A stretch of 64,000 nt of DNA, taken from assembly GCA_016794345.1 (NCBI GenBank), contig JAEUKE010000124.1, positions 62,001 to 126,000 on the forward strand, in the 5' to 3' direction. Positions within the stretch are counted from its first letter, which is position 1. Each line of letters begins with the position of its first letter. The stretch is from Myxococcales bacterium (lineage in GTDB: Bacteria; Myxococcota_A; Polyangia; Polyangiales; Polyangiaceae). A program made the position numbers and the translations under genes. Below the pieces are notes generated by a model. The model was not told the DNA's origin. It saw only the letters and a list, made by a program, of their open reading frames with translations, and did not search any database. Shown here piece by piece: positions 550 to 17,327 of this stretch.

Positions 550-810
550 GTCCTGTATTGCGACTCAAGTGTCCACTATAACGGATGTTTGGCGTAGCGT
601 CTCTCCTTGGCGGCCGGTTCGACGATCATTCTCCCAGGCGGCTTGCTGCAGCGGCCACGCCGCCGAGCACACCGAAGTGCTGCGACAGCACTGGGGCAGC
701 GAGCGCTCGCTGCCGTCCGCGGCTCGTCGCACCGCACCCGGCCTTCGGCTGCCGAGCGCGGCTCGTGCGCGCGCCTGTGGCGTGGAACGACGCGTGCTAG
801 AAGGTCGCCG
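550..810. other. Non-coding stretch upstream of the BNR lipoprotein
   Basis: No supported gene. The left end has an inverted repeat, TGAGTC at 547–552 and GACTCA at 562–567 with a 9-base spacer, followed by a short AT-richer run (CTATAA). Reading frames on both strands across the rest are biased in composition but have no recognisable domain, and they overlap the well-supported gene that starts at 811. Confidence 0.4.
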
Positions 811-1893
811 ATGCGCGCTCTCGCCTCCAGCTTGGTCTTCGGTGTCTGGCTCGTCGCCGCGTGTGGTGACGATGACGCTTCTTCCTCCAGCGGGACGGGG
901 GCGGGCGCGACGACCGGCGCGGGCGCGGGGGCGACCACGGGCTCGGGCGCGACCACCGGGACGGGCAACACCAGCACGGGGAGCGGAAACACCGGGGGTG
1001 GGGGCAGCGGGGTCGGCGGTGGCCCTCCGCAAGGCACTCCGATGCTCGTCGCGGTCGGCTACGGCGGTCGGCGGCTCTCTTCGCTCGACGGGCTCGTCTG
1101 GGAAAATGACATCATCGTCGACCCGAACGGTGGAGACGACAACAACCTCTTCCGTGGGGTGGGCTTCGGCGACGGCGTCTTCGTCGCCGTGGGCGGAGGC
1201 AGCGAAGGACAGGTGGCCACCTCGACCGACGGCGTGAGCTGGACGTTCCAGTCACCGGCCACGAGCTGGATCGGCGACGTCGCGTTCCTCGGCGGCGTCT
1301 TCGTCGCCGCGGGCGGAAACGGGCTGCGCATCCGCTCGACCGACGGCGGCGTCACCTGGACCGACGACCAAGGTTATTACGCCGGGCATTACCGCGGAAT
1401 CGCTGCGGGCAATGGGGTCTTCGTCGCCGCGGGGCACACCTACGGCGGCGGCGATCAAGGCCTCATCAGCACCACGACCGACGGCGTGACGTGGACGGCG
1501 GAGCAGACCGGCGGCGCCACCTTCCACTCGATCACCTACGGCGCGGGCGCCTTCGTGGCGGTCGGCAACGACCGCTGCTCGGTCTCGTCGGACGGCGCGA
1601 CCTGGAGCGACTGCGCGATCAGCGCGACCGATCTCGGCCACGTGGTCTTCGGCGACGGACTCTTCGCGCTCCGCGCAGCGGAGGGCATCTTTACGTCGGC
1701 CGACGGGATGACGTGGCAGAGTGTGGCCGCGCAGCAGCCGCCGCAGGGCATCCTCGGCTTCGGGGCCGGCACCTGGGTCGGCGCCTCCTGGCCCGGTCAT
1801 CTCTTCGGCTCGGCCGACCTCTTGGGCTGGCAGACCGCGACGGTGGACGACGGTCCGGCGATCGTCGACGTCCAGCTCGGCTTCATCGAGTAG
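811..1893 (+). CDS. Lipoprotein with BNR/sialidase-like repeats
   Basis: A 360-residue secreted lipoprotein. The ATG at 811 gives a short signal peptide ending in the lipobox LVAAC (Cys about residue 18), followed by an Asp/Ser stretch and a Gly/Thr/Ser linker of about 60 residues. The remainder has at least six copies of a DG(x)TW motif (DGLVW, DGVSW, DGGVTW, DGVTW, DGATW, DGMTW) alternating with GxGVFVA strands. This is the Asp-box (BNR) signature of six- or seven-bladed beta-propellers. No glycosidase active site is evident, so I call it a surface propeller, not a sialidase. It converges on the metzincin gene, with a hairpin between them. It resembles in plan the two propeller lipoproteins at 38–42 kb. 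Confidence 0.8.
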   Translation: MRALASSLVFGVWLVAACGDDDASSSSGTGAGATTGAGAGATTGSGATTGTGNTSTGSGNTGGGGSGVGGGPPQGTPMLVAVGYGGRRLSSLDGLVWENDIIVDPNGGDDNNLFRGVGFGDGVFVAVGGGSEGQVATSTDGVSWTFQSPATSWIGDVAFLGGVFVAAGGNGLRIRSTDGGVTWTDDQGYYAGHYRGIAAGNGVFVAAGHTYGGGDQGLISTTTDGVTWTAEQTGGATFHSITYGAGAFVAVGNDRCSVSSDGATWSDCAISATDLGHVVFGDGLFALRAAEGIFTSADGMTWQSVAAQQPPQGILGFGAGTWVGASWPGHLFGSADLLGWQTATVDDGPAIVDVQLGFIE

Positions 1894-1930
1894 CGAGCAG
1901 TCGACGCCGTCACCCAGGCCCAAAGCCGAA

Positions 1931-1955
1931 AGGGGCTGCGGAATCCGCAGCCCCT
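1931..1955. terminator. Bidirectional hairpin between convergent genes
   Basis: A perfect 11-bp stem (AGGGGCTGCGG, loop AAT, CCGCAGCCCCT) lies between the stop of the propeller lipoprotein (1893) and the stop of the metzincin gene (1978). There is no long T-run on either side, but the position and stability fit a shared terminator. Confidence 0.7.
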
Positions 1956-1977
1956 TCCGGCGATGCGCCCGCCTCTC

Positions 1978-4900
1978 TCAGTTCTCGGCGGGAACGTCCG
2001 TGCCGTCGAGAGGGCCGTTGTACATCAGGCCGATCTGCCGAGTCGCGTCGATCAAGCCGACGTACTTGACGAGCGCATCGTCAGTTCCGATGGCTGCGAG
2101 CGCGTTCGCATGCTGGAGCATGCGCGACGCGATGCCCTTGTCGACCTGACGGCCGTTGATCGTCTCCTCTCCGTAGAGGCGCGCGACGTAGGTCAGGCCG
2201 CTGTTCGGGTCGAGGAACTCGACGAGCTCCGTGTCCGGGATCGCGCCGATGAAGTCGACGCCCTTGATGTAGATCCGCATCTTGTTCACCAGCGTCATGT
2301 CGGTGTTCATGCGCCCGAACAGGTGGGCGTAGATCACGATCCCCAGCTGGTTCTGGTAGCCGATGTTGGGGAACACGGGTGTGCTGTTCGCCGGGCGCGA
2401 GGGCGCCGCACCGGTGAGGTCGAGCGCCTGGACCGAGCGGAACGGCAGACCGCCGTGTGGGTCGGGGATGGTATCGGGACCGACCCACATGGCCACGGTC
2501 TCCCAGTCCTCTGCCAGGATGCCGCCCATGAGACGGTCGACCGCCTGGGGCTCGTCGTCACGGAAGTTCTTCATCACGTTGCGGCCGTCGAGGTACGTCT
2601 CGCGCGAGATGGTGAACAGCGTCGGGCGACCGTCGAGGAGCGCGCGGAGGGCCATGCCGCGCTCGGCGTTGTAGCCCGCGTGGTCGATCCAGGAGAGGTA
2701 GTCCCAGTTGCCACCGTCCACGTTGCTGAACTCATCGGCCACGTAGCGGCCGTCGACCTTGGCGACCTGGAAGACACCGCCACCATTGGGATCGGCGTCG
2801 AAGACGCTCTGCCCGCCCATATTGAACTTGGAGGCTCCTCCGGGCTCGGGGGACAGCGCGGCGCGAACGAGGAAGTGGAAGGTCTCGCGGCGCGCGGCCT
2901 CGTACTCCGGGCCGAAGCTTCGGTCTTCGAGGACCCAGTGGAACGAGCGGGCCCGCTCGAGGAAGCGATCCGCGGTCGACCAGGGCAGCGACTTGTAGCC
3001 GTACTCCTTGTTCTGCCGCCTGAAGTAGGTCGTGAGGTAGCTGAGGTCGAACATCCTGGAGTTGCCGATCGTGACCTCGTAGACGTCCGCGCCCCCGTCG
3101 CTCGGGTTGGTGTGGAGGTAGCCGTGGCCATAGGTCTCGCCGTAGCGGTAGCTCCAGCGGTTGCGGGGCCTGCCGTCCGGCGTCGCCGACTTGAGCGTCT
3201 TCCACGCCGTGAGGTTGAGGAAGTCGAGCGGTCGCTTCGCGCCGTCCTCGTCGTCGTCGATGAAGTCCTTCCAGCGGTAGTGATCGCGCGGACTCTGGGC
3301 GCAGACCTTGCCGTGGACGACGCGCCACTCGCCCTGCTCGATCTCCGCCGGCGTGGCGTCGCGGCAGTAGCTCGGCTGGAACACCTTCATCTCGCGGGCG
3401 AGCGTGGTGTAGTGGGCGATCCGGTCGCCGAGGACGTTTACCTCGCTGAGCTGAAGGCCCATGTTGGAGGCGAACTGGTCCTGCTCCTCCGACGCGATTC
3501 CGCCTTCGGCGACACGATCGATGTCGTAGGTCTCGAGGACGCCCGCATACACGGCCTTCATGTACGCCAGGTCGTAGGTCCCGAGGCCGGGCGACAAATA
3601 ATCCTGCTCGTACTCCATGACCGAGGTGTTGCCGAAGTAGGCGACGCCGGGCCGTCCCTGGCTGCGTCCTTGGCCGTCGCGGGGGGCGAGCCCGAGCTCG
3701 TCCTCCGTCTCCGGATCGTCGAAGCGCGGGCCGATGCAATCGTCCACCGAGTTGGGATCACGCGGGCCGGTGCACGTCTCCGTTGCCTGACCTTCGTTGG
3801 TCCGGAGCTGCCAGTACTGCGGCATGTAGTTGGTCGCGTCATAGCTCGACGCGAAGTTGTGGCGCATGCCGAGGGTGTGCCCCATCTCGTGGATGGCGAT
3901 GCCGCGTGCCATGGCCTTGAACAGGTCCTCGTAGATGTACTCGGCGCGCGCCTTCACCATCGCCGGATCCCGGGCCGCCCCGGGTACCATATCGCCTGCC
4001 ATGCCCAGGTCCTCGAACTTGTCCAGGTACCAGCGGCTGATGCCGGCCCAGTTGATGCTCCCGATGCGCGGCACGTCCTCGACGTAGCAGATGCCGCGCG
4101 CCGCGAGCTTGGCGTCGATCTGGGCGCGCCACAGCGCCAAGCGCCCGGGGTCCAGGTTGCGCAATGGTGACGCCTGCTCGAGCAAGCTGTCGGTCATCGG
4201 CTCGCTCGGATCGGCGCCGGTGAGCTGGACCCACGACGCGCCCACCATGTCGGCCTCGTATTCGGTGCCCCGGACCTTCGCCGCGAGAGCCTCGAACTTC
4301 GGCTGCGTCGCCGATTGAAGGAGCGGATCGTAGGCCGACTTGGTCTGCGCCTCGAGCACCTGGAGGAGCGTCGGGTCGTCGCGGCGTAGCGCGCGCGCCT
4401 GGGGGGCCTCGTAGACCTGACCGGCGGCGTCGGCCGCCATCCGGCTGTCGGGCGAGTAGCCGTTCGCCGCGATCTTGTTGAAGACGAACTGCGGCGTCCC
4501 CTGGATGAAGTCGTCCTCTTCGAAGTCGCCGAGCGCGTAGAGGATGTAATCGCGGTAGATCGCCGCTGCGCGCGTGGCCGAGCGCCCCATCACCGTGGCG
4601 GTGACGCCGTGGCTCTCCCCGGTCTCCGGGTCCTGGCCGAGGCCGGCGACCCCGCCATAACGTGCGTCGGAGTCGTGGGGCCAGTAGTAGATGAAGTTCT
4701 TTCGCTGATCGCCAGCGCGCGCGACCTCGTCGGTCTCGCCGCAGACCTCGTGCAAGTCGTACGCGCGCACCGGGGCGTGGCAGGAGGTGAGCGCGTAGGG
4801 GCCATCCTGCGGCTGTGCCTTGGGTGTCGCGATGCCCCAGCCGCCGAACGAGATCATCTGGGTGATGTCGTTGCCCAGCTCGTCGACCTCGAAGAACTCG

Positions 4901-11152: not shown

Positions 11153-11268
11153 GGCCCGGGTCTTACCCCGGGCCGTTTCGCCCGACAATCGGCTCACCTT
11201 CCGGCGTCGCCCGGCGGGGACGGCCCGGAAGTTTGGCCCGAGCTCGCGTGGCTTGCTACCGGCGGATC

Positions 11269-12927
11269 GTGCGCGCTCTCGGGCAGGCCCTCGTCGTTCT
11301 TCTGGCCAGCGTGACGGCGAGCTGCGTCGACGCGCCAGGCGCCGCGATGACCGCTGGTCGTCGGCTGGGCCTGCCCACGCTCGAACGGCCCAAGCCGCTC
11401 GCTCCGCTGGCGCACGCGGTCTTCGAGCTCCCGCCCGAGCCACCCCCTCCCGCGCCCGTCGCCGCGCCGCCGCCGCCACCCGAGCCCGTCGCCTCGGCCG
11501 AGCCCGACTGGGACATGGCGAAGGAGATCGCGGGAGAAGAAGCCTCCGAAGAGGAGGGCGACGACGACGAGGTGGGCAACGACGGCCCGTCGGAGGTCGC
11601 GGAGGACACGGCGCCCGTCATCGCGAGCACCGCGCGCGAGACCTGGATCTTCGCCGAGCCGCGCCGGAAGAGCCGGCGCATCGGCTACCTGCGCGCCGGC
11701 GCGGTGGTCCCGCGCGCGGCGAAGACCGCCGGGACGGCCGGGTGCCGCGGCGGGTGGTACCGCATCGAGCCCGAGGGCTACGTCTGCCGGGGCAAGACCG
11801 CGACGCTCGACCGCTTCAACCCCATCGTCGAGGCGTCGAAGGTCCGCCCGAAGCTGGACGGGCTTCCTTACGATTATGTCATGTCGCGCATGCCGACCCC
11901 GCCGCTCTACTCGCGGCTCCCGACCGAGTCGGAGCAGGCGCGGTACGAGCCCGACAGGCGCTACCACCAGAAGAAGCTCGAGGGCCTGAAGAAGGACCCC
12001 GCATTCGTTCCGCTCCCCGAGCCGGGGCCGGTCCCGCCCGTCTTGCTCTACGGGCAGGCAGCGCCCGGCCTCACCGACGGCAAGCCTCGCGGCGAGGGCG
12101 ACGTCCACCTCGGTCAGGCGCGCGTCCGCTCGGGGTTCGCGCTGCTCGGGCAGTTCGACCACGACGACAGGCGCTTCGGGCTCACCACCGACCTCACGGT
12201 CGTGCCGCTCGACCGGATGCGCTGGGTGAAGCCGTCCAGCTTCCAGGGGCTCGCCCTGACCGACGAGATCACGCTCCCCGTCGCCTTCGTCATGAAGAAA
12301 CACGCGACGCGGTACTCGCAGGAGGACGGCGGCCGCATGCGATCGGGCGACGCGCTCGGCTATCGCGACGCCGTCCCGCTGACGGGCCGATCGGTCAAGG
12401 GCGGGGCCTACCTCGAGGCGAAAGACGGGAGCTTCGTCCGCGCGGAGGACGTTCGCCGCGTGGAGCCGATGTCACGCGTCCCGACCTGGGCGAAAGACAG
12501 CCGCCGCTGGGTGGACGTCTCCATCCTCGAGCAGTCGCTCGTCGCCTACGAGGGGACAAAGCCCGTCTACGTGACGCTCGTCTCGACCGGCGCCGACGGG
12601 CTCGGCGATCCGAAGGAGACGCACTCGACCATTCAAGGCGTCTTTCTCATCCACACGAAACACGTCACCGTCACGATGGACGGCGAGGACGCGGGCGACG
12701 AGTTCGATCTGCGCGACGTGCCGTTCGTCCAATACTTCACCGACGGCTACGCCCTGCACGCGGCGTATTGGCACGACGACTTCGGCACGCCGCGGAGCCA
12801 CGGCTGCGTGAACCTCGCCCCGCTCGACGCCGCCTGGCTCTTCTCCTTCACGACCCCCGACGTCCCGGCGACCTGGCACGCGGCGCTGTCGCTCAAGAAG
12901 GGCACGATCGTCTACACGCACCCGTGA
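11269..12927 (+). CDS. L,D-transpeptidase (YkuD) with SH3-like domain, probable lipoprotein
   Basis: A 552-residue envelope enzyme. The GTG at 11269 gives MRALGQALVVLLASVTASC, a signal peptide with a lipobox-like end; a TTG at 11233 would add 12 polar residues. After a Pro/Ala/Glu linker, residues about 120–185 form a bacterial SH3-like segment (AEPRRKSRRIGYL to YVCRGK). The C-terminal ~130 residues are a YkuD catalytic domain with HAAYWHDDFGTPRSHGCVNL, in which Cys513 is the nucleophile and the preceding His residues complete the site. Such enzymes make 3→3 peptidoglycan crosslinks or attach proteins to the wall. The central region (residues 190–400) is less clear. It converges on the DUF1552 gene, separated by a palindromic repeat. 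Confidence 0.88.
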   Translation: MRALGQALVVLLASVTASCVDAPGAAMTAGRRLGLPTLERPKPLAPLAHAVFELPPEPPPPAPVAAPPPPPEPVASAEPDWDMAKEIAGEEASEEEGDDDEVGNDGPSEVAEDTAPVIASTARETWIFAEPRRKSRRIGYLRAGAVVPRAAKTAGTAGCRGGWYRIEPEGYVCRGKTATLDRFNPIVEASKVRPKLDGLPYDYVMSRMPTPPLYSRLPTESEQARYEPDRRYHQKKLEGLKKDPAFVPLPEPGPVPPVLLYGQAAPGLTDGKPRGEGDVHLGQARVRSGFALLGQFDHDDRRFGLTTDLTVVPLDRMRWVKPSSFQGLALTDEITLPVAFVMKKHATRYSQEDGGRMRSGDALGYRDAVPLTGRSVKGGAYLEAKDGSFVRAEDVRRVEPMSRVPTWAKDSRRWVDVSILEQSLVAYEGTKPVYVTLVSTGADGLGDPKETHSTIQGVFLIHTKHVTVTMDGEDAGDEFDLRDVPFVQYFTDGYALHAAYWHDDFGTPRSHGCVNLAPLDAAWLFSFTTPDVPATWHAALSLKKGTIVYTHP

Positions 12928-13040: not shown

Positions 13041-14402
13041 TCAGGTGAGGAGGCCGGGGAGGGCGCCGTTGCTCGCATCGCCGAACGAATCGATCGAGTG
13101 GCCCATGGCCTGGGCCAACGCGATCCACAGATCGGCGTGGCGGCGGCCGCCGGTGTCGATCAGGCGGCCGGTGGCGATGCGACCGCCGGCGCGGCCCGCG
13201 ACGACGAAGGGCATGTCGTCGTGGTAGTGGGTGTTGCCGTCGCAGACCTCCGTCACGCACACGACGATCGAGTGGTCGAGCATGGTGCCGTCCTCCTCCG
13301 GTAGCTCGTCGAGCTTGCCGATGAGGTAGGCGAGCTGGCTCATCCACCACTTGTTCTGCTTGGCGAAGGCGTCGAACTCCTTCTTCTGGAAGTCGTGCGC
13401 GGGGCCGTAATGGGAGGCCTGGTGGCTCCGCATGTCGAAGCCGGGGTCGTACATCTCCGTGTTGGGGAAGCGGCTCATGATGAGCTCGCTCGTGTGCTGC
13501 GACGCCTGGATGACGCCGACCTTCGTCAGCCCACACGCCATCGCGAGCACGGTGAGATCCATCTGGGCGCGCAGCACGTCCGGAAAGTGACCCGGGTCGG
13601 TCATCGTCGCGTCCTCGACGCCGGTCGTGTCGAGCGTGGGCTCCTCACACGTGGCCCCGCCGGGGCCGCCGGGGGTGCCCTCCTTGATGCGTTTCTCCAC
13701 CTCGCGGAGCGACTCCAGGTGGATGTCGAGCTTGGCCTTCTCCACGTTGCCGAGCCTCGCGCGCGTCGCGTCCATCTCGGCGAGGACCCCGTCGATGACG
13801 CTGACCTTCACCGGATCGGGGCCCGTGGGCTCGCCGGGCGTGGGCTCGGCGGGGGCCGCGCCGAAGAGCAGATCGAACGCTTTGCGCGGGTCGTCTTCCG
13901 GCGCGACGCTCTGCCCAGGGGCCACGTACGAGATGTGTTTGTCGCCGGAAGCGGCGTTCACGGTCGCGTGTGCGCCCAGGTAGAGGTGCCGGAACGGCGC
14001 GCCCGAGCCCACCGTGTTCGCGAGGACCTGATCGATGGACACGGCGTTTCCGTAGTCCGTCGCCGTGAGGAGCTTCTTCGCGCCGCCCGGATGGCTCCCC
14101 GAGTCGGTCCCGCCCATCGAGAGGCCGCGGAAGAAGACGCAGTCGTCTTTGTACGGAGCGAGCGGCGCCTGGAGGCTGCCGAGGCTGAAGCTCGAGCCGC
14201 TGCCCGTCGCGTGCCACAGGCTCGGCTCGCCGTTCTGGCTGGGGCCTGCCACGCCGTCGGGGTGGTAGAAGAAGATGACTCGCTTGGCGACCCCGCCCTC
14301 CGCGCGCACCCGTCGCTCGGCGAGGGATCCGAGGGGAAGGGCGAGCCCGGCCGCCCCGAAGAGGCGGAGGAGGGAGCGACGGTTCTGTCTCCTGATGCTC
14401 AT
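13041..14402 (-). CDS. DUF1552 secreted protein
   Basis: A 453-residue protein of the DUF1552 family, which is found paired with DUF1587/1592/1588-type proteins in myxobacteria and planctomycetes. The N-terminus NRRSLLRLFGAAGLALPLG has a twin-Arg and hydrophobic stretch, suggesting Tat export of a folded, probably cofactor-bearing protein. Family-type blocks are RVIFFYHPDGVA, DDCVFFRGLSMGG, SHPGGAKKLLT, SIDQVLANTVG and, near the end, LDHSIVVCVTEVCDGNTHYHDDMPFVVAGRAGG, reminiscent of the metal site of alkaline-phosphatase-fold DUF1501 relatives. Biochemical function is unknown. Its ATG overlaps the stop of the upstream DUF1592 gene by four bases (ATGA), so the two are translationally coupled and likely act together at the envelope. 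Confidence 0.88.
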   Translation of the reverse strand: MSIRRQNRRSLLRLFGAAGLALPLGSLAERRVRAEGGVAKRVIFFYHPDGVAGPSQNGEPSLWHATGSGSSFSLGSLQAPLAPYKDDCVFFRGLSMGGTDSGSHPGGAKKLLTATDYGNAVSIDQVLANTVGSGAPFRHLYLGAHATVNAASGDKHISYVAPGQSVAPEDDPRKAFDLLFGAAPAEPTPGEPTGPDPVKVSVIDGVLAEMDATRARLGNVEKAKLDIHLESLREVEKRIKEGTPGGPGGATCEEPTLDTTGVEDATMTDPGHFPDVLRAQMDLTVLAMACGLTKVGVIQASQHTSELIMSRFPNTEMYDPGFDMRSHQASHYGPAHDFQKKEFDAFAKQNKWWMSQLAYLIGKLDELPEEDGTMLDHSIVVCVTEVCDGNTHYHDDMPFVVAGRAGGRIATGRLIDTGGRRHADLWIALAQAMGHSIDSFGDASNGALPGLLT

Positions 14403-16417
14403 TGCGCCCTCCGGTACGAAAACGCCTTCACCTGGGTCAGGGCGACGACCAGCTCACCCACGTCGTGGCCCGAGTCGGCGAAGCGAGCCGCGAGCGAGCC
14501 GACGGTGCCTTCGTCGTCCGGGGTCTCGAGCCCGCCCGAGGCGCGCCGGTAGAGCTGCTTCACGAGGCAGGTCTTCGCGCTCTGGCTCTCGGCGAGAATC
14601 CGGCCGAGCTCCGGGAGCCCGACGAACGCGCGGTCGGTGTCGGTGCCGAAGCCCTCCACGCTGGTGACCGCGCCGGAGACGTCGACGGGCTTGCCCGCGT
14701 CGGTCTCCCGCGCGCGACCGATCGCGTCGAAGCCTTCGAAGCCGAACCCGATGGGGTCGATGTTCTTGTGGCAGCCGTTGCAGGTCGGATCGCTCGAGTG
14801 CTGGCTGAAGCGCTCGCGGGTCGACGCGTTCGGGTCGACCTCGGGGACACCGCCCGCGTTGGGCGGGGGCGGCGCGAGCTCCTGACACAGCAGGCGCGTC
14901 CGCACGAAGACGCCGCGCCTCACCGGCGACGTCTGGTCCGAGTGGGACTGCGCCGCGAGCACGCTCGCCTGGGCGAGGAGCCCGGCGCGGCGCGCCGGGG
15001 GCAAGGCGCCGTCGGCGCCCGCCCCGTAGAGCTGCGCGAGGCGGCCGCTCGCGCCCGTCCGCTCGGCGAGGAACAGATCCTGGAAGGGTGCTGCGCCGAG
15101 CGCCACGTCGACGAAGAGCGAGCGTGTCTCGCTCTTCATGTCCGCCGCCAGCGCCGCGTCGAACTCGGGGTAGAGCTCAGGCTTCTTGGCAGCCTGCTCG
15201 ATGGTCTCGATCGCCAGCCACTGCTCCGCGAAGAGCCCCATCATCTCGGCCGCCCGCGGATCTTCGAGGAGCCCCCGCGCCTCGGCCTCGATCCCTTCGG
15301 GGGTGTCGAGCGCTCCGGCCTCCGCGGCGTCGAGCAGCGCGTCGCTCGGCGTCGAGCCGATGAGCGTGTAGCTCAGCGCGGTCGCGGTCTCGTAGGGGGT
15401 GAGCCTGACGGTTCCGTCGCCGGCGTCCTCGCCGATCTCCGAGCGGTACAGGAACGCGGGCGACGAGAGCGCGACCTGGAGGAAGACGCGTACGCCCGTC
15501 GCCAGTTCCGGCTGCGCCGCCACGAGCGCGTGCAGGCGGTCGCCTTCGTCCTTCGAGAGCGGCCTGCGGAAGGCGCGGCGCCCGAACGCCTCGACGGCGT
15601 CGCGGACACACGGGTCGGCGGCGGTCTGCGCCGCGCACCCGTATCGCGGCAAGAGGTCGGCGGCGCGCTCCTCCGCGATGCGCTCGCCAGCGCGCAGGTA
15701 CTGCTCCACATGGGTGCTCGTCACCAGCGCGCTCGACGCGTTGTCGAACGGGTAACCCTCGGGCCGGCTCTCGACGGGGAAGTCCTTCGCGTAGTCGGCG
15801 CTCTTCGGCTGCGGGTCCGGCGCGTCCGCCGGGTCGGGCTCGCCGGCGCAAGCCTGGGCGAGGAGCGAGTTCACGCCGCCGAAGCCGTCGGGCTCCGAGC
15901 TCGGGTTCGAAGGGTCGGCCAGCCAGGTCACGCCGTCGATGACGAATTTGTAAGCGTAGGAGCCGTCGGCGATCGCGCGCTTCGTGACCCACGCGCCGAG
16001 CGACGGCTCGAAGGTCATGCCGTAGCCGCCGGCCTGTTCGGTCGCGCCCCAGCCGTTGAAGGAGCCGGCGACGAGCACCGTGGCCGACGACGGATAGCCC
16101 TCGAGGACGAAGGTGACGAGCTCACACCCGTCCTTCTGGCAGGCGCCACCCACACACGACTCCTCGTGGATGTCACACGCCGCGTCCGCGGTGCAGGTCG
16201 GCGTGGCCGGGGCCGGCGCGCCGGCGAACAGGTCCGCGACGGTGGCGTTGTACTCACGCCGGGTGAGTAGGCGGAGCTGCCGCGGGCCGAGCCCCTCCGC
16301 GGCGGCAGGGTCGGTCACGGGAGGGAGCGGCGGCGCATCACCACGGCTGTCGTCGTCCCCGCACCCGAACGTCAAGAACGAGAGGACCGCATACGCGAAG
16401 CGTCGCCGCATAGTCAC
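14399..16417 (-). CDS. DUF1587/1592/1588/1585 cytochrome-like protein with inserted CBM48 domain
   Basis: A 672-residue exported protein. It has a hydrophobic N-terminus ending in a non-canonical lipobox (TFGC, Cys19). Residues 46–66 (RQLRLLTRREYNATVADLF) are the first half of a DUF1587 module; the second half (DFPVESRPEGYPFDNASS, THVEQY) comes only at 212–240. In between sit a six-Cys stretch (75–98) and a CBM48/E-set carbohydrate-binding domain at about 98–190 (VLVAGSFNGW, GAWVTKRAIADGSYAYKFVIDG). Then follow DUF1595/1592, and a DUF1588-like block with SDQTSPVRRGVFVRTRLLC and a c-type heme-like CNGCH before NIDPIGFGFEGFD, then DUF1585. An AGGAG site precedes the ATG at 16417. Coupled to the DUF1552 gene by ATGA. 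Role unknown; the insertion suggests glycan binding. Confidence 0.88.
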   Translation of the reverse strand: MTMRRRFAYAVLSFLTFGCGDDDSRGDAPPLPPVTDPAAAEGLGPRQLRLLTRREYNATVADLFAGAPAPATPTCTADAACDIHEESCVGGACQKDGCELVTFVLEGYPSSATVLVAGSFNGWGATEQAGGYGMTFEPSLGAWVTKRAIADGSYAYKFVIDGVTWLADPSNPSSEPDGFGGVNSLLAQACAGEPDPADAPDPQPKSADYAKDFPVESRPEGYPFDNASSALVTSTHVEQYLRAGERIAEERAADLLPRYGCAAQTAADPCVRDAVEAFGRRAFRRPLSKDEGDRLHALVAAQPELATGVRVFLQVALSSPAFLYRSEIGEDAGDGTVRLTPYETATALSYTLIGSTPSDALLDAAEAGALDTPEGIEAEARGLLEDPRAAEMMGLFAEQWLAIETIEQAAKKPELYPEFDAALAADMKSETRSLFVDVALGAAPFQDLFLAERTGASGRLAQLYGAGADGALPPARRAGLLAQASVLAAQSHSDQTSPVRRGVFVRTRLLCQELAPPPPNAGGVPEVDPNASTRERFSQHSSDPTCNGCHKNIDPIGFGFEGFDAIGRARETDAGKPVDVSGAVTSVEGFGTDTDRAFVGLPELGRILAESQSAKTCLVKQLYRRASGGLETPDDEGTVGSLAARFADSGHDVGELVVALTQVKAFSYRRAQ

Positions 16418-16490
16418 TCACTCCTGAGTTACTTGTTTCACAGTTCGTGTGCCGCTGCGACGGTGATCTTTGTTACAATCGGTCAGACCA

Positions 16491-17327
16491 ATGGGCGCCG
16501 CGCAACTTCGAGGGACTCTAGGCGTTTGTTTTCTCCTCCTCGTGCCCGTGGCCGGCTGCGAGTGCTCGAGCGACGAAGAAGGCTCGGGAGCGAGCGGGGC
16601 GGGCGCGAGCTCGGGGACCGAGAGCGGCTCGCCGCAGGGCTCGACCGGGGCGTTCACCACCAGCAACGGCACGGGCCAGGGCACCGGCACGGGCGGCGGA
16701 ACGTGTGGGTCCAACCTCACCGGCACCATCCGCGATTTTCAGGCGAGCCACCCCGACTTCGAGGACTTCCTCGGCATCGACCCCGGCATCGTCCTTCCCG
16801 ATCTCGGTCCGGACAACAAGCCGGTCTACGCCGGGCAGGCGGGCAACGACACGACCACGGGCCAAGCCAACTTCGATCAGTGGTTCCGCGACGTGTCCGG
16901 CGTGAACCAGAGCGCGCCGTTCACGCTCACGCTCACGCCTTCGGGCGGCGGCGTCTTCACGTTCGACGACTCCGACTTCTTCCCCGTCGACGATCAGCTC
17001 TTCGGCAACGAAGGCAACCCGCACAACTACCACTTCACCTACGAGCTTCACACGACGTTCCTCTACTCGGGCGGCGAGACGTTCAGCTTCACCGGGGACG
17101 ACGACCTCTTCACGTTCGTGAACCGGAAGCTCGCGATCGATCTCGGCGGCGTGCACGGCGCCATGAGCGACACGATCGATCTCGACGCGCGCGCGGCCGA
17201 GCTCGGGATCTCGCCGGGCAACGTCTACCAGCTCGACTTCTTCTTCGCCGAGCGACACACGACCGAGTCGAACTTCCGTGTCGACACGACGCTCGTGTTC
17301 ATCGACTGCGGCGAGCCTCCGCAGTGA
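16491..17327 (+). CDS. Fibro-slime domain lipoprotein
   Basis: A 278-residue lipoprotein starting at ATG 16491 with signal peptide GVCFLLLVPVAGC (lipobox VAGC). A 60-residue Ser/Gly/Thr linker is followed by a fibro-slime-type domain (first described in slime-mould and fibrobacter surface proteins, related to PA14). It shows IRDFQASHPDFEDF, QWFRDVSGVNQS, FSFTGDDDLFTFVNRKLAIDLGGVHG and VYQLDFFFAERHTTESNFRVDTTLVF, closely following the family order. These domains bind calcium or sugars in extracellular adhesion proteins; the acidic DDSD and GDDDLF turns fit calcium sites. It is divergent from the DUF1592 gene, whose start is only 73 bases away, so both share a promoter region. A TACAAT hexamer at 16474–16479 might be a −10 but lies very close to the ATG. 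Confidence 0.87.
   Translation: MGAAQLRGTLGVCFLLLVPVAGCECSSDEEGSGASGAGASSGTESGSPQGSTGAFTTSNGTGQGTGTGGGTCGSNLTGTIRDFQASHPDFEDFLGIDPGIVLPDLGPDNKPVYAGQAGNDTTTGQANFDQWFRDVSGVNQSAPFTLTLTPSGGGVFTFDDSDFFPVDDQLFGNEGNPHNYHFTYELHTTFLYSGGETFSFTGDDDLFTFVNRKLAIDLGGVHGAMSDTIDLDARAAELGISPGNVYQLDFFFAERHTTESNFRVDTTLVFIDCGEPPQ

Follow-up and report, generated by a model that had tools for sequence, protein, structure and literature searches.

A CBM48 carbohydrate-binding domain within the split PSD3 (DUF1587) domain of a myxobacterial cytochrome-like protein

A DUF1592-type PSD/PSCyt3 protein encoded in the window, a 64,000-nt stretch of a Myxococcales genome, carries a CBM48 carbohydrate-binding domain inside its PSD3 (DUF1587) domain. 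The lipoprotein-like product (14399..16417, minus strand, 672 aa, GTG start) contains PSD3, PSD5, PSD4, PSCyt3 and PSD2 in this order, all five above their Pfam cut-offs. On the same strand, an N-terminal signal recognized by eye (residues 1-19, 16361..16417) ends in a lipobox-like LTFGC and precedes the first part of PSD3 (residues 49-68, 16214..16273). The second part of PSD3 (residues 208-250, 15668..15796) is followed by PSD5/DUF1595 (residues 270-327, 15437..15610), PSD4/DUF1592 (residues 339-465, 15023..15403), PSCyt3/DUF1588 (residues 477-573, 14699..14989) and PSD2/DUF1585 (residues 596-666, 14420..14632). PSCyt3 holds the single c-type heme motif (CxxCH), CNGCH, at residues 546-550 (14768..14782), and its C546, C549 and H550 are identical in all 45 aligned insert-bearing proteins. 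The initial annotation had described a surface cytochrome-like protein, with which this motif and the predicted signal peptide with its lipobox-like end are consistent. Searches of the protein against NCBIfam returned only a T9SS_plug match far below threshold, and a PHROGs search gave no match.

When the two PSD3 pieces were compared with Pfam separately, the upstream piece matched positions 1-20 of the profile (PF07626, 23.6 bits) and the downstream piece positions 21-62 (32.3 bits), with neither overlap nor duplication. Leaving out the insert and joining the two parts produced one continuous match over profile positions 1-62 (58.4 bits; cut-off 23). These matches bear out the insertion within DUF1587 proposed in the initial annotation; the separate pieces rule out a complete DUF1587 on either side of the CBM48, each side being a complementary part of the profile. 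The size and position of the insert, previously given as about 145 residues at 15850-16220, are now revised to 139 residues (residues 69-207, 15797..16213, minus strand), the gap between the PSD3 parts. The host PSD3 fold is probably retained despite the insert, with both parts presumably packing together.

The PSD3 loop is not a general hot spot for insertions: CBM-only loci of other phyla led to nine genomes, five of which have no PSD3 match, and all 13 PSD3 matches in the others are continuous. Within the genome of the window itself, 13 of 15 PSD3 matches are continuous, the window protein is split, and one on contig C153 (L031) is partial. The latter belongs to a DUF1592 paralog (G000:C153:49500-54500, ORF 1113-3347, minus strand) whose match covers profile positions 1-28 in the genome search and 1-20 in the Pfam test of the ORF; it is partial because the loop carries a short extension, as judged by eye.

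The CBM48 itself (AMPK1_CBM type, residues 97-192, 15842..16129, minus strand) was identified by profile, fold match and contact residues, all of which agree with the earlier identification. The AMPK1_CBM profile (PF16561) matches residues 112-185; its score is 28.9 bits (E 1.3e-6) for the isolated piece and 24.4 bits for the whole protein, just under the cut-off of 26.8. The same profile matches all eight family members tested (E<=0.1, best 1.9e-10), CBM_48 matching four of these eight and X25_BaPul_like five. Run against PDB sequences, the family profile retrieves a pullulanase of family GH13 (1.3e-10) as well as the glycogen-binding domains of AMPK beta (1.5e-10), the W, K, W and N positions coinciding. 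An AF2 model of the 672-aa protein built on a 45-row alignment reached pLDDT 88.5 and pTM 0.77, with the CBM mostly at about 90 or above and values below 50 only at residues 1-37, 68-71 and 193-205. A structure search with the whole model as query, in which the CBM part filled the matches listed, aligned the model to 1z0n_B with Z 12.0 and rmsd 1.8 over 80 residues.

Residues W123, K157, W165 and N183, identical in 45/45 insert-bearing proteins, align with W100, K126, W133 and N150 of AMPK. As described in the available parts of PMC9788615, AMPK contacts to beta-cyclodextrin include W100, N150, W133, K126, L146 and T148; in plant PTST, according to the available parts of PMC4339375, substituting both equivalent tryptophans abolishes starch binding. 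Of the 96 CBM positions 12 are invariant, and all four contacts belong to these 12; the chance figure of 1.5e-4 for this assumes that positions are equal, which does not hold. The equivalent of Leu146 (position 179) is not strictly kept: it is Phe in 36 members, including the window protein, Tyr in 5 and another residue in 4 of the 45. Feruloyl esterases occur among the CBM48 fold matches, one of them with xylobiose bound (8bf3), so the fold by itself leaves sugar specificity unfixed. Both points count against the explanation favoured below.

The next-best CBM matches in the class include myxobacterial proteins in which CBM48 is followed by an alpha-amylase-like domain (recognized by eye for L130, L135 and L137 and Pfam-tested for L127), and two of these, L135 and L137, are encoded in the genome of the window. 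That genome also encodes a protein in which CBM48 precedes an esterase-looking domain (L136, G000:C99:49500-53000, ORF 759-1982, minus strand). Three alpha-amylase-type proteins (L090, L093 and L106; the Alpha-amylase profile match was tested and seen for L090) combine a Cys-rich lead-in with CBM48 as in the insert. Their CBMs nest among the inserted ones in a CBM tree, with support of 97/91 for the group holding the window CBM, in a tree of only 95 columns whose bootstrap had not settled and in which the inserted CBMs are not an exclusive group. Whichever way the module moved, the unit of Cys-rich lead-in and CBM48 is, judging by its sequence context, at home in alpha-glucan enzymes. The four contacts and the sharing of this unit with alpha-amylase-type proteins favour an alpha-glucan as the ligand of the sugar-binding arm predicted earlier, and sugar binding by the inserted CBM48 is well supported by sequence.

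Relatives with the same architecture are widespread. When 59 genomes were searched at the protein level, 49 gave some match and seven homologs proved to contain the CBM as well; a contig scan gave 266 matching stretches, 203 of which encode a relative. Among the best 80 of these 203, which were kept, 44 have the CBM between PSD3 parts, with full-length scores of at least 412, and some of these loci come from the genomes that gave the seven homologs; the other 36 are CBM-only, with scores of at most 70. In-frame TAG/TGA stops occur within the match in several CBM-only frames of some class families (e.g. G071, G074, G102 and G103). With an eight-row profile, at least 37 of 317 genomes of the class have a match of 191.7 bits or more, a lower bound since about nine candidates were scored per genome; below that score there is a gap down to 109 bits or less, where matches are CBM-only except for a few partial rows. 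At E<=1e-45, 34 of 377 genomes of the phylum match (17 outside the class, one of them partial at a contig edge). A gene with the CBM48 insert was found in neither of the two same-genus genomes, so its presence is patchy; this counts against the explanation that we favour below.

We built a maximum likelihood tree of the host core, from PSD5 to PSD2, with 31 insert-free paralogs, 22 from relatives and 9 from the genome of the window. All 45 insert-bearing proteins lie on one side of a branch separating them from the paralogs (support 97/95), a split recovered in 96% of 200 bootstrap trees. The simplest reading of this tree is a single insertion event, and the insert-in-PSD3 architecture is old and stable.

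Two features flanking this architecture were overlooked in the initial annotation, or were read differently there. The first is an additional N-terminal cytochrome c, present in 40 of the 44 relatives and missing from the window protein; it is a Cytochrome_CBB3 domain by Pfam in L048 and L089. The members with one CxxCH (the window protein, L047, L050, L051 and L091) branch outside the 40 with two, and 21 of 22 insert-free relatives have one; the N-terminal cytochrome was therefore probably gained after the CBM, the window protein representing the older form. The second is the Cys-rich mini-module that leads into the CBM (residues 74-98, 16124..16198, minus strand), delimited from the family alignment. 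The six cysteines noted earlier are all present and do not form one stretch: five fall within residues 75-98, up to C98, and the sixth, C190, comes after the CBM. The Cys stretch is optional in the family, which had been missed: 14 of the 45 members have five cysteines in the lead-in, L091 has four and the remaining 30 have a single one. Because early-branching rows carry the five-Cys lead-in, it was probably present first and lost later. C98 and C190 each occur in 44 of the 45 members and are jointly missing in L091; a disulfide between them probably closes the arm at the base of the insert, which would fit their joint loss.

The CBM48-bearing gene overlaps by 4 bases a downstream partner gene on the same strand (13041..14402, minus strand, 453 aa), which had also gone unnoticed. 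Its product matches HXXSHH/DUF1552 (PF07586) with 196.4 bits, and H327, S330 and H331 of its HxxSH motif are invariant in all 38 aligned rows. A DUF1552/HXXSHH gene lies downstream in 41 of the 44 loci; the L057 locus stops at the gene, and no DUF1552 gene lies within 5.8 kb in L048 or L049. A predicted model of the partner (38 rows, pLDDT 80.7) aligns with iduronate-2-sulfatase over 258 residues (Z 16.4, rmsd 3.6, 12% identity), and the partner is accordingly predicted to have an alkaline-phosphatase/sulfatase superfamily fold; a PDB sequence search with it returned nothing relevant. Its N-terminus contains an RR pair that looks, by eye, like a Tat signal. The genome of the window has 15 PSD3 and 20 DUF1552 matches, with DUF1552 near PSD3 on the same contig in 14 of 15 cases and the fifteenth PSD3 at a contig edge.

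Across the loci, DUF1552/HXXSHH was the sole sensible recurrent neighbour in a survey whose crude gene caller also picked wrong-strand frames, and the survey found no starch or glycogen gene as a conserved neighbour, which again counts against the favoured explanation. Within the window, the gene pair is flanked on one side by a divergently transcribed gene (16470-17327, plus strand) whose lipoprotein-like product, with a PA14 domain by Pfam, we take to resemble fibro-slime proteins. Beside the pair there is also a protein with an SHGCVNL motif seen by eye (11233-12927, plus strand), presumably an L,D-transpeptidase-like motif.

These observations suggest that the CBM48-bearing PSD/PSCyt3 member works on starch- or glycogen-like sugars. 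The explanation that we favour, and consider reasonably probable as a whole, is that of an exported cytochrome-like protein docked on an alpha-glucan and working with a partner of alkaline-phosphatase fold. CBM48, with its small Cys-rich lead-in, would have been inserted once into the DUF1587 loop after the first helix, in one myxobacterial clade, and kept since. The exported protein would grip a starch- or glycogen-type polymer through the two-Trp cradle of CBM48, while the heme domain or domains and the co-encoded DUF1552 protein would act on the polymer or on some moiety that it carries. The inserted arm would then set the target of one pair among the roughly 15-20 such pairs in the genome. 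The explanation builds on the split domain, the conservation, the contact residues and the gene pair, as read from sequence, and on the modelled partner fold; we infer sugar specificity, surface export, a redox role and a complex with the partner. A tentative generalization, which we hold to be doubtful at present, is that PSD/PSCyt3 and DUF1552 pairs may be exported, heme-containing glycan-processing machines built on a catalyst of alkaline-phosphatase/sulfatase fold, in which arms at varied points of the chassis set the polymer, here CBM48 in the PSD3 loop for an alpha-glucan.

Instead of anchoring the protein, CBM48 could sense glucan: as in AMPK, sugar occupancy would shift the arm and so gate either the heme domain or the interface with DUF1552. 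The insert sits inside a domain, so motion can pass to the host fold, and it belongs to the AMPK-beta-type family, in which glycogen or beta-cyclodextrin binding modulates the kinase, as stated in the available parts of PMC9788615. The low-confidence linkers of the model (residues 68-71 and 193-205) suggest a loosely tethered arm, and we regard a sensor as unlikely.

We also consider it improbable that the insert has lost sugar binding and serves only as an E-set domain for structure or protein contacts. E-set folds frequently have structural roles, and the PF16561 score of the window protein is near the cut-off; against this, the four main glucan contacts are kept without exception and the lead-in and CBM48 are shared as a unit with alpha-amylase-type proteins. 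Electron donation to a lytic polysaccharide monooxygenase (LPMO) has been proposed for Cbp2D of Cellvibrio, which combines CBM2, cytochrome domains and DUF1587 and whose X183 reduces LPMOs, according to the available parts of PMC8981238. Such a role is weakened here because the LPMO_10 profile, the LPMO family covered, has no match in the genome of the window; the window protein also lacks the extra cytochrome domain of most relatives, and we judge this role very unlikely. An assembly chimera or a chance resemblance, conceivable in a draft of 321 contigs with 5.16% contamination, is practically excluded by the same junctions and insert site in 44 further loci.

PSD/PSCyt and DUF1552 proteins are abundant, and with a conserved CBM whose predicted glucan site is intact, one clade now has a concrete substrate that can be tested. 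The modelled alkaline-phosphatase fold of the partner suggests a kind of chemistry to assay, and the protein with the within-domain insert can naturally be compared with the roughly 14 paralogs of the same genome that lack it.

In open-licence full texts, where a negative carries little weight, we found neither a CBM48 in PSD/PSCyt proteins or a CBM inside PSD3, nor an established function for PSD/PSCyt proteins and their DUF1552 neighbours. The closest known systems include the PSCyt/PSD proteins of freshwater Verrucomicrobia, some of which have CBMs (PMC5615132, available parts). As in our case, they combine PSD and PSCyt domains, and He et al. describe PSCyt3 genes as usually adjoining a family of unknown genes (same source). 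Those parts of the paper give Laminin_G_3, Bac_rhamnosid_N, NPCBM, CBM_6 and PA14 as CBM types, with CBM48 not among them, and make no mention of an insertion within PSD3. A planctomycete-type protein (L142, PSCyt1-PSD3-CBM60-PSD5-PSD4-PSCyt3) has the same domain series plus a carbohydrate-binding module, but its CBM60 comes after an uninterrupted PSD3 (profile 2-64) and ahead of PSD5. Cbp2D of Cellvibrio japonicus likewise unites a CBM, cytochrome domains and DUF1587, but has CBM2, X158, FN3, X183 and X132, is associated with cellulose and keeps its CBM separate (PMC8981238, available parts); a Cellvibrio "DUF1592 domain-containing protein" with CBM2 appears as a table entry in the available part of PMC6004670. 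The AMPK beta glycogen-binding domain (1z0n; CBM48) shares the fold (Z 12.0) and the four glucan contacts, but is part of a eukaryotic kinase subunit, whereas the insert lies in a predicted exported bacterial protein and has a flanking Cys pair. The alpha-amylase-type proteins L090, L093 and L106 have in common with the insert the CBM48, the Cys-rich lead-in and the nesting of their CBMs, but their CBM48 is followed by an alpha-amylase domain and they have no PSD or PSCyt domain. CBM-bearing PSCyt proteins were therefore already known, whereas the position inside PSD3 and the CBM48 type appear to be new.
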